A stretch of DNA of 27,234 nt from the IMG/VR virus record IMGVR_UViG_3300042375_000181, positions 1-27,234 of that record; one strand, 5' to 3'. The stretch comes from a virus. The stretch's first letter is position 1. Each line of letters opens with the position of its first letter. The notes beneath the pieces were generated by a model that worked only from the letters and a program-made list of their open reading frames with translations, was not told the DNA's origin and searched no databases. Below are positions 5,955-25,486 of this stretch, piece by piece. Position numbers and translations under genes: made by a program.

Positions 5955-6473
5955 ATGACTTTGACACAAGATGAAGCGCACAGATTGTTTGAATACAGAG
6001 ATGGACTGTTGTTCTGGAAGATTAGACCTTTGTCTGATTTCAAAACAAAAGGTCGCCATGAGCATTGGAACGAAAGATATGGTTACAAGCAGGTTGGAAG
6101 TTGTGCGGGTATATATGTAAATGTTTCAATTAACAAAATACGCCATCAAGTGCATAGAATAATTTTCTTAATGCAACATGGTTATTTGCCCAAAGTTGTT
6201 GACCATATAAATGGAAATACACAAGACAATAGAATTGAAAATCTTAGAGCCGCAACACATACTGAAAACATAAGAAACTCTAAAATTGCTAAGAATAGTT
6301 CTTCAGGAGTTAAAAATGTTGTTTGGCATAAGCAACGTCAAAAATGGGCTGTAAGGATTATTGTTGACAAGAAAAGCAAATCTTTTGGTTTGTACGATGA
6401 CATTGAACTTGCTAACCTTGTTGCACATGAAGCAAGAAATAAATACTTTGGCTCTTTTGCTCGTCACTTTTAA
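5955..6473 (+). CDS. HNH homing endonuclease with AP2-like DNA-binding domain
   Basis: The 172-residue protein has a classic HNH core at residues 67-99: VHRIIFLMQHG, VVDHINGN (DH at 83-84), then DNRIENLRAAT. An AP2-like beta-sheet DNA-binding region follows at about 117-155 (SGVKNVVWHKQRQKWAV...SFGLYDD). Such HNH-AP2 proteins are mobile endonucleases that cut cognate DNA lacking the insertion. It has its own ribosome-binding site (AAGGA before the ATG) and sits between the tail fibre and the next tail gene with short gaps. It reads more A+T-rich than its neighbours by eye, fitting a free-standing selfish gene. Confidence 0.88.
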   Translation: MTLTQDEAHRLFEYRDGLLFWKIRPLSDFKTKGRHEHWNERYGYKQVGSCAGIYVNVSINKIRHQVHRIIFLMQHGYLPKVVDHINGNTQDNRIENLRAATHTENIRNSKIAKNSSSGVKNVVWHKQRQKWAVRIIVDKKSKSFGLYDDIELANLVAHEARNKYFGSFARHF

Positions 6474-22251: not shown

Positions 22252-22277
22252 AAAAAAACCCGCTTTTTAGTGCGGGT
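22252..22277 (-). terminator. Rho-independent terminator, leftward
   Basis: Read on the minus strand, ACCCGC (22277-22272) and GCGGGT (22263-22258) form a perfect 6-bp stem with an 8-nt loop, followed by seven T (22258-22252). It ends the leftward accessory cluster about 60 nt after its last gene, back-to-back with the rightward terminator. Confidence 0.85.
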
Positions 22278-22335
22278 CTGAGGGTTTAGCGTTTGCCTGA
22301 CAGAATTCTAAGGATTAGGGCAATACAGGCATAAA

Positions 22336-22527
22336 TCAATTTACTTGCAAAACTGGCTCATATTTCCAGTCTGCCCCATCGTGTTCGTCTAAAAAAACCC
22401 ATTCAATCAATTCCTCGCTTTCATAATTAGGGTTTTCGGTCATTATCTTATTTTTGGCTTCTTCTAATGTTTCAGCTTCAATAAAATATTCATAAGACAC
22501 GTTTCTAAATAGTTGAAAAGTTTTCAT
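22336..22527 (-). CDS. Small acidic hypothetical protein (63 aa), last of accessory cluster
   Basis: The 63-residue acidic product is FQLFRNVSYEYFIEAETLEE, AKNKIMTENPNYESEELIEW and VFLDEHDGADWKYEPVL. The 'f.v.r.vsye..IeAet.eEA...i' opening resembles small beta-alpha proteins that pair through a sheet. GGGGTG precedes the ATG, which overlaps the upstream gene's stop. Strong acidity is a trait of some phage anti-defence DNA mimics, but there is no direct evidence here. Otherwise unrecognised. Confidence 0.6.
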   Translation of the reverse strand: MKTFQLFRNVSYEYFIEAETLEEAKNKIMTENPNYESEELIEWVFLDEHDGADWKYEPVLQVN

Positions 22528-22694
22528 TGTTCACCCCATAATTTAATTGCAGCTTGTTTGCACTGGTTTACTTGTTTTTTGGTCAACCCGTGGGCTATTT
22601 GTTCCGCTAATTCGGCAGCTTGTTGCGCTTTTTGGTCACTAGGTGCAGTTAAGGCCAAAACTAGGCATTGTGTTAGTGCTTCAATTTGGCTCAT
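22524..22694 (-). CDS. Small helical protein (56 aa)
   Basis: The frame is framed by 4-nt overlaps on both sides, so it fits the operon exactly. The product is MSQIEALTQCLVLALTAPSD, then QKAQQAAELAEQIAHGLTKK and QVNQCKQAAIKLWGEQ. The 'aLt.alvLAltAPtd.ka..a.elAe.ia.glt..qv..Ck..A' pattern recurs in small phage and plasmid proteins, with two amphipathic helices. Function unknown. It is short enough to be skipped by default gene finding. Confidence 0.63.
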   Translation of the reverse strand: MSQIEALTQCLVLALTAPSDQKAQQAAELAEQIAHGLTKKQVNQCKQAAIKLWGEQ

Positions 22695-22954
22695 ATTTCC
22701 GCCCTAAATTCTGAAAGTGTTAAATTTTTAGCGTAATAGTTATCCCCTGATTTTTTAAAGCATGAATAAATTGGATAACCCTCTGCATTGTCGCTAAGTG
22801 GTTCACCCACTAAAAAGCCCCTAGAATTTTGAGCACGTGGCGGCACTGATTCCAACATATCCCAATACATTTTTTTAGTGGTTTCAATCCATTCGCTAGG
22901 GTTTGCTTCCATTGCATCCCAAAGTGGCTGCCATTCAAGTTTTTGAGTGTTCAT
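22691..22954 (-). CDS. Conserved protein with EPLSDNAEGYPIYSCF motif (87 aa)
   Basis: ATG 22954 is chosen because AAGGGG lies upstream; the longer frame runs into the neighbouring gene. The 87-residue product is WQPLWDAMEANPSEWIETTK, MYWDMLESVPPRAQNSRGFL, VGEPLSDNAEGYPIYSCF and a final YYAKNLTLSEFRAEI. The 'f.e.WemlevlPP.......FlvGEp...n..G.pvy.cf.......yyA..lT..EF' pattern resembles the DUF1419 family of plasmids and mobile elements, from memory. No known function. Confidence 0.62.
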   Translation of the reverse strand: MNTQKLEWQPLWDAMEANPSEWIETTKKMYWDMLESVPPRAQNSRGFLVGEPLSDNAEGYPIYSCFKKSGDNYYAKNLTLSEFRAEI

Positions 22955-22965
22955 TTTTATCCCCT

Positions 22966-23226
22966 TTATGCTTGAATCCAAGGGCCGCCCATATCTGCAA
23001 AACTTTTCCAGCTTGTCAGATAATGGGAATTTGGATAAGAGGGTTTTGTAGTGCAAAAATTGACGTATTTCATTTCATAGCGTTTTCGTGCGTTTTTCTC
23101 TATCAAAAATGCTTGATCTGGATTTTCGCATTCAATAACTAATTTATTGATTTTTCCCGTAGCATCACCCCATCCCGACATGAATTTGTCGGTCATTGTG
23201 ATGTAGTATTTGCGTTCTTTTTTCAT
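22966..23226 (-). CDS. Conserved mobile-element protein with YITMTDKFMSGWG motif
   Basis: AAGG stands before the ATG. The 86-residue basic product opens YYITMTDKFMSGWGDATGKI, then NKLVIECENPDQAFLIEKNA and KRYEMKYVNFCTTKP. I recognise this 'yyiTMtDkFMSGWG.a.gk.nKlviecd...qA..iek.A..R.emk.vni' outline in proteins of plasmids, integrative elements and phages; none has a known function. It is first in the last module of the cluster, after repeat A. Confidence 0.66.
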   Translation of the reverse strand: MKKERKYYITMTDKFMSGWGDATGKINKLVIECENPDQAFLIEKNARKRYEMKYVNFCTTKPSYPNSHYLTSWKSFADMGGPWIQA

Positions 23227-23250
23227 ATTGAACCTTAAAAAATATTAAAC

Positions 23251-23302
23251 CCTAGGGAAACACCTAGGCCAATAACCCCCAATTAGAGGGTTATCAGTCT
23301 AA
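23251..23302 (-). repeat. Intergenic hairpin repeat A
   Basis: Two hairpins fill the gap between two leftward genes. CCTAGG (23251-23256) pairs with CCTAGG (23263-23268), and ATAACCC (23272-23278) pairs with GGGTTAT (23288-23294), followed by CAGTCTAA (23295-23302) next to the upstream stop codon. The second hairpin and the CAGTCTAA box are shared with repeat C. There is no T run, so they are unlikely simple terminators. Confidence 0.6.
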
Positions 23303-23305
23303 ACA

Positions 23306-23503
23306 TTAGGATAAAAGGGCTTTGCAAAGTAGATCGGCCTCATGTAGATCAATGGCTGACCGAAAAGCCTCTAAGTAGTCGGCAAATTGTGGGTGATCTG
23401 GTTTCATGTTGACACCGCCAGCCTTGCGAGTTGATTCGACAATGATTCCAGCACTGTTAGCCAGATATGCAGCGTAATTGCTTGAATTGTGTAGAGTGAG
23501 CAT
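23306..23503 (-). CDS. Small hypothetical protein (65 aa)
   Basis: ATG 23503 is preferred over GTG 23512 because the conserved leader TATAGGTG then acts as ribosome-binding site. The 65-residue product is MLTLHNSSNYAAYLANSAGI, then VESTRKAGGVNMKPDHPQFA and YLEAFRSAIDLHEADLLC. It seems a soluble alpha/beta mini-protein. No family recognised with confidence. It is the last gene of its module, followed by repeat A. Confidence 0.58.
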   Translation of the reverse strand: MLTLHNSSNYAAYLANSAGIIVESTRKAGGVNMKPDHPQFADYLEAFRSAIDLHEADLLCKALLS

Positions 23504-23520
23504 TTTTAACACCTATAAAA

Positions 23521-23754
23521 TTACATATAAAAGCGGGTTTTATCAGCGGTCAACTCATTAAAGCGGTCAATGTAACGCTTAATTTGAGCTTGATTGTCGT
23601 TGAATGTATTGTGAATAACGCTTGATCTTTCCTTGATAAGCCACTGGTGATAGTAGTCTGAGCCTTCAGTTTCAAATAAGCTCAAGGCAAAATCAGCGTC
23701 TATTGTGGCTTGATCTTCGGGGAAATTGTCGATTGCAGCTTGATAAAAAGTCAT
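23521..23754 (-). CDS. Small acidic hypothetical protein (77 aa)
   Basis: ATG 23754 is preferred over GTG 23763 because the leader TTTATAGGTGTTCAC places AGGTG correctly. The product is MTFYQAAIDNFPEDQATIDA, DFALSLFETEGSDYYHQWLI and a helical C-terminus NDNQAQIKRYIDRFNELTAD. It is acidic in its first half. No family recognised. First gene of the module between repeats B and A. Confidence 0.58.
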   Translation of the reverse strand: MTFYQAAIDNFPEDQATIDADFALSLFETEGSDYYHQWLIKERSSVIHNTFNDNQAQIKRYIDRFNELTADKTRFYM

Positions 23755-23784
23755 TGTGAACACCTATAAATTAAAAATTAGATT

Positions 23785-23824
23785 CTAGGGGCATGAAACC
23801 CCTAGGCAATAGGGATAAACCCTA
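23785..23824 (-). repeat. Intergenic hairpin repeat B with TAGGG-ATAAA-CCCTA palindrome
   Basis: CTAGGGG (23785-23791) pairs perfectly with CCCCTAG (23799-23805). Then TAGGG-ATAAA-CCCTA (23810-23824) forms a second small palindrome that overlaps the stop of the upstream gene. The 15 bases from 23809 are identical to 17781-17795 in the divergent control region. The two-hairpin layout parallels repeats A and C. Confidence 0.6.
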
Positions 23825-24001
23825 GTTTTTATCAATAGAATACATTGTGTGTCCTATTGTGATAACCATAGAACCCGATTCTATAAGAGTACTTATCCAG
23901 CTTCTATCAATTTTGCACCATTGTGCGCTATCAATAGGCAATGATTTTATGGTTTGCCATCCGTCATTATCGGTTTTTTGATGTAGTGTGATAGTTGTCA
24001 T
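23822..24001 (-). CDS. Small hypothetical protein (59 aa)
   Basis: ATG 24001 is chosen for its AAGGGG ribosome-binding site; the longer frame upstream overlaps the neighbour out of phase. The product is MTTITLHQKTDNDGWQTIKS, then LPIDSAQWCKIDRSWISTL and SMVITIGHTMYSIDKN, mainly beta-strands by pattern. No family recognised. Its stop lies within repeat B. Confidence 0.55.
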   Translation of the reverse strand: MTTITLHQKTDNDGWQTIKSLPIDSAQWCKIDRSWISTLIESGSMVITIGHTMYSIDKN

Positions 24002-24011
24002 GTTTAGCCCC

Positions 24012-24257
24012 TTAAACCTTGTTAGCCCACTGTAAACCCGCATCAGTAGCGTGATAAGTGTTAGCGTCAACATCATGCGATAAAAAACCATGACGTTCTA
24101 ACGTGCTCATTATTTGCTGGAATTGATTAAAAGTAGCCCCGTGTGACATGAGAGCACTATAGATAACGCCACTAGGTGCACCGATTGAATCAATATTTGC
24201 AGCTTCAATTATTCCCTTGCCTATTGATTGAAGGGCTAAAATTTGTTGTTTAGTCAT
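24012..24257 (-). CDS. Winged-helix-like protein (81 aa)
   Basis: The 81-residue product is MTKQQILALQSIGKGIIEAA, GAPSGVIYSALMSHGATFNQ, QQIMSTLERHGFLSHDVDAN and YHATDAGLQWANKV. The order helix, helix (GAPSGviYsALM), recognition helix (fqqiMstLerhGfl) and wing ending in 'y..TdaGl.wa' is that of a MarR-like winged helix. It might regulate the cluster. The conserved leader TATAGGCGTTCACA precedes its ATG. Confidence 0.62.
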   Translation of the reverse strand: MTKQQILALQSIGKGIIEAANIDSIGAPSGVIYSALMSHGATFNQFQQIMSTLERHGFLSHDVDANTYHATDAGLQWANKV

Positions 24258-24288
24258 TGTGAACGCCTATAAAATGTTGAAAAAACCC

Positions 24289-24338
24289 CAGTGAGACACT
24301 AGGCCATAAACCCCTATTACTAAGGGTTTACAGTCTAA
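24289..24338 (-). repeat. Intergenic hairpin repeat C
   Basis: A small imperfect hairpin (AGTG-AGA-CACT, 24290-24300) is followed by TAAACCC (24307-24313) pairing with GGGTTTA (24324-24330), then CAGTCTAA (24331-24338) directly beside the upstream stop. The second hairpin and box match repeat A in order and spacing, with compensating changes in the stem (ATAACCC/GGGTTAT versus TAAACCC/GGGTTTA). Confidence 0.58.
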
Positions 24339-24644
24339 TCACTGTATCGCATCAGTTTGTGAAATGTGAAAAACAGTAGAACGCCTACAAAGCATGAAAG
24401 AACTTTCACTGTCTTTTTGTTTTGCTGGAATCCATGTAACAACTTTCACGCCCTTTTCACCCTTACGAACTTGTCTATTAAGGGCAAGCCAGGCATTGTA
24501 AGTAAACACGTTTTCACGGGGAATAATGTCATTGGCTGCTATTCCCTTATCGGCAAAACCTTGCATGATTGCCTGATAATTGGCTAATGAGTCCCCGTTT
24601 TTAGCCCTATTGAGTGATTCTATTGATTGTGTGATTTTGTCCAT
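24339..24644 (-). CDS. ArdC-like antirestriction N-terminal domain protein (101 aa)
   Basis: ATG 24644 follows the conserved leader (ATAGGCTATACATC). The 101-residue product contains NVFTYNAWLALNRQVRKGEK, then GVKVVTWIPAKQKDSES and a C-terminal STVFHISQTDAIQ. This corresponds to the single-strand-DNA-binding N-terminal domain of ArdC-type (DUF1738) antirestriction proteins, whose pattern is 'n...lal..rhvrkGekGvkv.tw.p......fr...vFh.sQTe'. The metallopeptidase domain that follows in full ArdC (about 300 residues) is absent. It could protect incoming phage DNA by binding it. Confidence 0.78.
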   Translation of the reverse strand: MDKITQSIESLNRAKNGDSLANYQAIMQGFADKGIAANDIIPRENVFTYNAWLALNRQVRKGEKGVKVVTWIPAKQKDSESSFMLCRRSTVFHISQTDAIQ

Positions 24645-24675
24645 GATGTATAGCCTATTAAAAAAGAAAAGAAAA

Positions 24676-24771
24676 TTATTTGACCAAAACGTCAAAATAA
24701 TCGAGTAAACCTATGCAAAGCACAAGGGCTATTGCAAGGGCAGCGGCATAGTCTAAAAATTGATCGTTCAT
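24676..24771 (-). CDS. 31-aa membrane peptide
   Basis: AGGGGTG precedes an ATG that overlaps the upstream stop by 4 nt. The product is MNDQFLDYAAALAIALVLCI followed by GLLDYFDVLVK: a single membrane helix with a short acidic N-terminus. Such peptides can act in superinfection exclusion or as toxin-like or regulator peptides. The strong ribosome-binding site and exact overlap argue that it is translated, despite its size. Confidence 0.6.
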   Translation of the reverse strand: MNDQFLDYAAALAIALVLCIGLLDYFDVLVK

Positions 24772-24965
24772 GCTGTCACCCCTAAAATTGAGGGTGAATC
24801 GGTGCAAATACACGCAACACGCTGGAATTTTGGTGCATTGTCTAATGTGCAAGCAATTAGATTGCGGCCCGTGTGTGTGTAGCTTTCAACACGCATAGAT
24901 TGCCCGTGTACTTGGATAATTTGGCCTATTGTGTATTGGCCCTTAGGGATAAAAGCAAATTTCAT
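24768..24965 (-). CDS. Small beta-rich protein (65 aa), first gene of accessory cluster
   Basis: The 65-residue product is MKFAFIPKGQYTIGQIIQVH, GQSMRVESYTHTGRNLIACT and DNAPKFQRVACICTDSPSIL, with alternating hydrophobic residues typical of a small beta-barrel. No family recognised with confidence. The leader TTTATAGGCGTTACATC, shared with other genes of the cluster, stands before its ATG. It follows the A+T-rich control region at 24966-25094. Confidence 0.58.
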   Translation of the reverse strand: MKFAFIPKGQYTIGQIIQVHGQSMRVESYTHTGRNLIACTLDNAPKFQRVACICTDSPSILGVTA

Positions 24966-25034
24966 GATGTAACGCCTATAAATTGCACTTTCCTATTGAA
25001 AGTAAAGTAATTTTATGGCCTAAAAAATAAAAAA

Positions 25035-25063
25035 CTATTAGGACAAACCCTAATAAAGTACAA
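25035..25063 (-). promoter_or_regulatory. Candidate leftward promoter with ATTAGG...CCTAAT operator
   Basis: On the minus strand TTGTAC (25063-25058) and TAATAG (25040-25035) are 17 nt apart, weak matches to -35 and -10. Between and overlapping them is a perfect palindrome ATTAGG-ACAAAC-CCTAAT (25037-25054). This is the only plausible start for the leftward cluster in the 129-nt A+T-rich gap. Palindrome-in-spacer layout resembles that at 17776-17797. Confidence 0.35.
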
Positions 25064-25094: not shown

Positions 25095-25334
25095 ATGGCC
25101 CGCCCGCCTAAGGTAGATACAGTGCAATTTAGACGCAAGCTGGATAACCCTAAGCTGCAAATATTGCTAAGTGCTGGGCAAGGCAATATTAGTCAGGGTT
25201 TTGAAAACCTATTGAGCCTTTACCATTACTTGCATGGAATCGGATATAGAACGGATAGCCCCTTAGAGACAATAGGGTTAGTAACTAACCTAGATCAAAG
25301 TAAAACAGATAGCCCGTATCAAGTGAACCAGTAG
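25095..25334 (+). CDS. Ribbon-helix-helix-like DNA-binding protein (79 aa)
   Basis: The 79-residue product is MARPPKVDTVQFRRKLDNPK, LQILLSAGQGNISQGFENLL and SLYHYLHGIGYR, with a flexible tail. A basic N-terminus, a strand (VQFRRKL), a helix, a turn (GQGNISQ) and a second helix fit the ribbon-helix-helix fold of small repressors. It stands alone in its own control region, divergent from the accessory cluster, so it is a candidate repressor of that cluster. An inverted repeat GGTTAGT-A-ACTAACC lies within its coding sequence at 25276-25290. Confidence 0.5.
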   Translation: MARPPKVDTVQFRRKLDNPKLQILLSAGQGNISQGFENLLSLYHYLHGIGYRTDSPLETIGLVTNLDQSKTDSPYQVNQ

Positions 25335-25448: not shown

Positions 25449-25454
25449 TATAAA
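25449..25454 (+). promoter_or_regulatory. TATAAA -10 candidate for the terminase unit
   Basis: TATAAA matches five of six -10 positions. The -35 place (25426-25431) falls inside the Fur-box-like dyad and is not a good sigma70 hexamer. Transcription would start about 25461, at the first TAGGG motif, and give a 155-nt leader before the small terminase gene. Confidence 0.35.
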
Positions 25455-25461
25455 TAATCAG

Positions 25462-25486
25462 TAGGGTAAACCCTGATAGGGTAAAC
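25462..25486. repeat. TAGGGTAAACCCT operator-like repeats
   Basis: TAGGG-TAAA-CCCT (25462-25474) is the palindrome seen at 17782 and 23810 with one base fewer in its centre. It is followed after 3 nt by a direct half copy, TAGGGTAAAC (25477-25486). Together these look like an operator with a second half site downstream of the possible transcription start. Confidence 0.42.

Follow-up and report, generated by a model that had tools for sequence, protein, structure and literature searches.

Elements A (23251-23302) and C (24289-24338) both belong to an RNA family of uncultured phages that is strongly conserved and hitherto undescribed. They lie in the window, by which we mean the whole stretch of 27,234 bases analysed here (IMG/VR record IMGVR_UViG_3300042375_000181, classed as linear), and both score strongly in covariance models. 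On the coding strand the members of the family follow the plan TAA-N3-UUAGA-hairpin 1 (12 bp)-hairpin 2 (CCUAG..CUAGG)-UUU-ribosome binding site-ATG. Judging from the comparison of sequences, we think that the chances are about even that they act as weak, conditional intrinsic terminators or attenuators between cistrons, and that they probably respond to the ribosome at the stop codon upstream.

The elements and their gene setting

The minus strand of the window carries the genes from 22336 to 24965, therefore A and C must be read on this strand, where the shared unit is UUAGACUG-hairpin 1-UGG-hairpin 2-UUU. Element A reads TAA-TGT-UUAGACUG-AUAACCC..GGGUUAU-UGG-CCUAGG..CCUAGG-GUUUAAUAUU. The TAA of the upstream gene (23306-23512) and the three nucleotides after it (TGT) occupy 23303-23308, the box UUAGACUG 23295-23302, hairpin 1 (CUGAUAACCCUC..GGGGGUUAUUGG, 12 bp including C-G, U.G and G.U pairs at its base) 23269-23297, the terminator-like hairpin 2 (CCUAGG UGUUUC CCUAGG) 23251-23268 and the U-containing tail GUUUAAUAUU 23241-23250, with the ATG of the next gene at 23226. 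Element C reads TGA-UUAGACUG-UAAACCC..GGGUUUA-UGG-CCUAGUG..CACUGGG-GUUUUUU. It follows the TGA of an ArdC-N-like gene (24339-24644; stop at 24339-24341) directly, at distance 0, and consists of the box at 24331-24338, hairpin 1 (CUGUAAACCCUU..AGGGGUUUAUGG) at 24304-24333, the terminator-like hairpin 2 (CCUAGUG UCU CACUGGG) at 24287-24303 and the U tract GUUUUUU at 24280-24286; the next gene (24012-24257) has its ATG at 24257. Hairpin 1 of both elements was assigned from folding and covariation, hairpin 2 from folding and a terminator scan and in A also from covariation. The box of C was assigned from sequence, fold and model R2 (see below), the stop of A from sequence, and the tails from sequence and the terminator scan, that of A also from the tail analysis.

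The preliminary description of this DNA recognised A and C as related repeats with a compensatory stem difference. That difference is real, and many more stem versions were found among the relatives. Its 'CAGTCTAA box' stands as a box, whose coding-strand reading is UUAGACUG and whose last three bases (CUG) form the base of hairpin 1: in the lowest-energy fold they extend this hairpin by C-G, U.G and G.U to 12 bp, UUAGA remains single-stranded, and hairpin 2 is set directly against hairpin 1. The repeats had also been described as lacking T-runs, which is true of the non-coding strand only. On the coding strand all three gaps are terminator-like, C having the tail GTTTTTT, and in the terminator scan of the minus strand hairpin 2 of each element was flagged (A 23268-23251, B 23805-23785, C 24303-24287).

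Element B (23785-23824), which had been listed as the third repeat, is related to A and C; it is a distinct class, matched by neither of our two covariance models. Its first hairpin, read from the sequence (UAGGG..CCCUA, 23810-23824, minus strand), overlaps the TAG stop codon of the upstream gene (23822-23824), and its hairpin 2, flagged by the terminator scan (CUAGGGG UUUCAUG CCCCUAG, 23785-23805, minus strand), is terminator-like and is followed by AAUCUAAUUUUU. The class is defined by CTAGGGTTTRTCCCTATTGCCTAGGGGTTTCATGCCCCTAG and a T-run, and related copies are present at gene gaps in 15 other loci. In the loci L005, L039 and L077 (elements at 2818, 2905 and 6537, read in coding orientation) an intact standard element is immediately preceded by a B-like sequence with signs of decay, which are clearest in the 3' arm of its hairpin 2; these three standard elements begin 40-44 nt after the stop codon. 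In these three cases only, B seems to decay after it has ceased to border a gene, the remnants being apparent relics of a lost gene.

The minus-strand operon consists here of small, mostly uncharacterised genes. The product of one of them (24339-24644) has 101 aa and is a stand-alone relative of the N-terminal domain of ArdC, an anti-restriction protein. IMG/VR contains at least 80 relatives; a protein search of cultured phages found no relative of this gene, and the terminase gave only distant matches (below 60% identity; the long matches among those listed had 27-29%). The element-bearing phages are apparently uncultured freshwater phages, an impression gained from the type of metagenome contig and from the lake-phage literature. 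A conserved motif of the minus strand, UUUAUAGGYGUU, is repeated at 23507-23519, 23758-23770, 24261-24273, 24379-24391 and 24970-24982, four of the five copies adjoining a start codon on its upstream side; it looks like the ribosome binding site of this phage group, without a full GGAGG core. Two similar inverted repeats of the TTAGG..AAACCCTAA type (25027-25060 and 25450-25483) flank the divergent start of the leftward operon and of a small gene at 25095, and are possibly operators or terminators. The convergent end of the leftward operon has a terminator-like hairpin (22256-22279, minus strand). Elsewhere in the window, a frame at 5955-6473 that resembles HNH-type endonucleases, judged from its translation, directly follows a long repetitive tail-fibre-like gene.

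Conservation of structure and position

A sequence pattern derived from A and C matched 46 viral stretches, many with two or three copies. Covariance model R1 was built from 14 A-type sequences including A and excluding C; it recovered C with 60 bits (E 6e-13) and matched more than 100 further copies outside its training set. Model R2, built from 137 sequences with A and C both among them, gave these two training members 82.5 and 74.2 bits, respectively, and found 265 non-overlapping matches in 145 IMG/VR loci; E-values of 1e-22 to 1e-25 are far beyond chance expectation. A broader pattern scan indicates that the family is larger than these matches. The search for further copies with a covariance model, suggested in the preliminary description, was in this way successful in IMG/VR phages. 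Twenty longer virus records had 1-6 matches each at E <= 0.001, some of which lie on the opposite strand over a better match because the element is nearly palindromic, so the true element counts are somewhat lower. Rfam, searched with the region and with A alone, returned nothing relevant above the gathering threshold, a DNA search of cultured phages found no element, and we found no earlier description of it in the open-licence literature. The one pattern match in bacterial genomes, in a Dehalococcoidia MAG (L129), was unsupported by R1 and was dismissed.

The two hairpins are, as the comparison shows, conserved structures of the coding-strand RNA. Among 106 distinct sequences standard pairs fill 99.4% of the hairpin cells, compared with 84.8% for shuffled partners and at most 67% for slid pairings, and 213 cells carry double changes compared with 61 in shuffles; such counts are biased towards the model structure, since the alignments had been fitted to it. 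Because the sequences are related, the changes were counted also on a tree of the elements made with FastTree. Both sides of hairpin 1 changed on 27 branches, on all of which pairing was kept, and both sides of hairpin 2 on 14 branches, with pairing kept on 13, whereas chance predicts about one pair-keeping double change per helix (about two in total); control column pairs had little excess. In 107 distinct elements the cells comprise 1403 Watson-Crick, 165 G-U and 7 A-C combinations, about 107 of the G-U cells being one conserved U.G pair. That G-U lies so far above A-C indicates that the selected molecule is the coding-strand RNA, and for the same reason a DNA cruciform or a protein-binding palindrome was ruled out. 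Selection on RNA structure, which had been proposed from the A/C difference, is strongly supported by the covariation, the tree count and the G-U excess.

On the transcribed strand a U tract comes immediately after hairpin 2, as in an intrinsic terminator. T is present in 85-96% of the copies at positions 2-4 after the hairpin, and the mean tail score is 2.27 compared with 0.88 for background; 31 of 165 tails start with two Us or fewer. In intrinsic terminators the first three Us behind the stem have been described as the best conserved ones and as critical (PMC8955417). In most copies here hairpin 2 has a stem of only 5-7 bp, and often just 3-4 Us follow it, which is weak for a terminator.

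For 248 of the 265 elements a called upstream gene ends within 60 nt, and in nearly all of the other 17 a shorter frame stops at roughly this place. The spacing between stop codon and box is exactly 3 nt in 156 of the 248 and 0-4 nt in 228, which is the fixed distance from the position of the ribosome expected of a translation-coupled attenuator; the 3-nt spacing was found with 28 upstream gene families. The stop codon is TAA in 90% (223/248), compared with 48% in the long frames of the same contigs, an imperfect control, as short genes may prefer TAA. In most copies about 8 nt separate the stop codon from the start of hairpin 1, and the next ATG mostly follows 5-24 nt after the element. This is too close for a separate promoter, thus a terminator at this site must be leaky or regulated. 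A ribosome on a stop codon covers about nine further bases, so that the spacer and most of the box would be covered. The fixed spacing could also reflect a compact gene border instead of coupling to the ribosome.

An alternative pairing of the box

Pairing is possible between UUAG of the box and CUAG of the 5' arm of hairpin 2, and would exclude hairpin 2. In 97 of 107 distinct elements nucleotide 2 of the box has a pairing partner in this arm (mean of shuffles 80, maximum 86), and there are three-way variants in which box, 5' arm and 3' arm match one another (TTAG/CCTAG/CTAGG, TAAG/CCTTGG/CCAAGG and TCAG/CCTGC/GCAGG). In divergent copies the box is CTAGG or ATAGG, a better match to CCTAG, and the inner CUG/UGG pairs are lost. 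On the tree the box:arm helix has only four pair-keeping double changes (two at nucleotide 2, one each at nucleotides 6 and 8, none at nucleotide 1), and A5xC36 is mismatched in most copies. Ensemble folding of RNA truncated before the 3' arm gave box:arm pairing a median probability of 0.99, compared with a mean of 0.20 for shuffled boxes; the truncated RNA forms a hairpin of roughly 16 bp with one mismatch. In the full RNA hairpin 2 was predicted at 0.82, and at 0.998 when the box was masked. Taken together, this is moderate evidence, from sequence comparison and predicted folding, that the pairing of the box with the 5' arm and hairpin 2 are mutually exclusive. A switch of translation initiation was rejected, since the predicted accessibility of the ribosome binding site and start codon is nearly equal in both forms.

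Possible functions and relation to known systems

If the elements are conditional terminators, RNA polymerase would partly terminate at hairpin 2 and its U tract, and each element would lower the expression of the genes beyond it. Less well supported are the steps by which this would be regulated. Hairpin 1 may place the UUAG box beside the CUAG of the 5' arm, so that in the emerging RNA the box would pair first with this arm, giving an antiterminator form, and would be displaced when the 3' arm emerges, giving the terminator form. With a ribosome on the stop codon the box would be covered and hairpin 2 would form at once, whereby translation of the upstream gene would control termination. A more far-reaching version, which we regard as rather doubtful, is that these phages use the elements throughout as 'double stop' modules, in which a UAA stop codon is coupled to a refolding terminator placed precisely at the point where the terminating ribosome ends, and the finishing of a small gene decides whether the polymerase passes to the next gene, whatever genes flank the module.

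The distance of hairpin 1 from the stop codon and the fixed spacing across many gene families would suit also a translational brake similar to REP elements, in which a stable hairpin within 15 nt of the stop stalls ribosomes and lowers the yield of the upstream gene. We consider such a brake unlikely, because it leaves the covarying hairpin 2, its U tract and the complementary box unexplained, and because enrichment of TAA, the strongest general stop codon, is unexpected for deliberate stalling. REP sequences are likewise intergenic hairpins close to stop codons (PMC12306157), but they are chromosomal repeats, and the available text of that paper does not describe a terminator tail or an alternative pairing partner for them. 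We see a similarly small probability that the hairpins are cleaved by RNase III- or RNase E-type enzymes, or are obstacles to 3' exonucleases, and so provide every cistron with a stability of its own. This would agree with the presence of two stable hairpins at nearly all affected gaps, with the long hairpin of the truncated RNA, and with loops and stem sequences that are free while pairing is kept; the conserved U tract directly after hairpin 2 and the mutual exclusion of hairpin 2 and the box are not predicted by it. Processing or stability had been suggested originally for want of a T-run, a premise which is lost as a conserved U tract does follow hairpin 2 on the transcribed strand.

Recombination sites were the other early suggestion, and the gene content around the elements is indeed variable. 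Their neighbours belong to 46 families upstream and 32 downstream, which occur in 81 combinations; the same element and downstream gene can stand beside unrelated upstream genes, and the reverse (e.g. A of the window compared with L039 and L016), near-identical downstream genes keep their own tail beside unrelated upstream genes and vice versa, and breakpoints fall at the edges of the element or inside it. With rough gene calling, the next gene differed between near-identical upstream genes in 57% of the pairs at junctions with the element and in 42% at other junctions, and the preceding gene differed between near-identical downstream genes in 52% and 75%, respectively. Turnover being comparably high at neighbouring element-free junctions, the element does not depend on gene identity, and it is not a demonstrated recombination site; a recombination hot spot was rejected on the same control, which gave no more exchange at element junctions than elsewhere. 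That the element is a mosaic linker, a short shared sequence kept for phage recombination and gene exchange, is in our view improbable: its junctions are not special, compensatory RNA changes make the DNA copies less alike, whereas a homology linker would need the reverse, and the G-U excess speaks for a function in RNA. One gene of about 210 aa (L003:269-907 and relatives) has elements on both sides. It matches a phage family labelled RusA-like resolvase, and also DNA polymerase processivity factor, with a match to the Pfam sliding clamp below the cut-off; the resolvase label may be wrong.

Mutually exclusive hairpins, the choice between which can be set by a ribosome, are found in the trp/his-type leaders and in tna. 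In contrast to these attenuators, the ribosome sensed here would be that on the stop codon of an ordinary gene, not of a leader peptide, and the element is present in many copies. The put RNA of phage HK022 (about 70 nt; PMC9378689) is, like our elements of about 60 nt, a phage RNA of two adjacent hairpins, and our elements are associated with non-structural phage genes. Put RNAs bind RNA polymerase, suppress termination, have a triplex structure and are present as two copies per genome, downstream of early promoters (PMC9378689). The elements described here have free loops and a hairpin 2 with a U tract, their copies stand in gaps between internal genes, and neither Rfam nor the cultured phages gave a sequence match, so a cis-acting antitermination RNA of this kind, with two hairpins that modify RNA polymerase, is very improbable. 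A ligand-binding riboswitch was dismissed, as the loops vary and the downstream genes belong to 32 families.

Several U-tract hairpins inside one operon are known from long operons of mobile elements, for example the pLS20 conjugation operon, where conAn provides antitermination (PMC8955417). Our elements differ in forming one covarying family with an additional upstream hairpin and a box at a fixed distance from the stop codon, and, unlike conAn of pLS20, no antitermination factor was identified for them. The SAS/ESAS repeats of Cluster K mycobacteriophages are also conserved inverted repeats, upstream of many non-structural genes of different families (PMC3203893). According to their authors RNA pairing is unsupported for ESAS, whereas the phage elements here have strong RNA covariation, and neither anchoring at stop codons nor a U tract is described for ESAS in the available text. 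No 13-bp SAS of the GGGATAGGAGCCC type was seen by eye in the element tails.

The comparative support for the family is unusually strong, and its placement after stop codons is precise to the base. If the proposed function is correct, the expression of freely exchanged non-structural genes in these phages would be set by a portable signal tied to the gene border instead of the gene, and also by the translation of the preceding gene. A compact part of about 60 nt would then make it possible to test the coupling of transcription and translation at natural gene borders.
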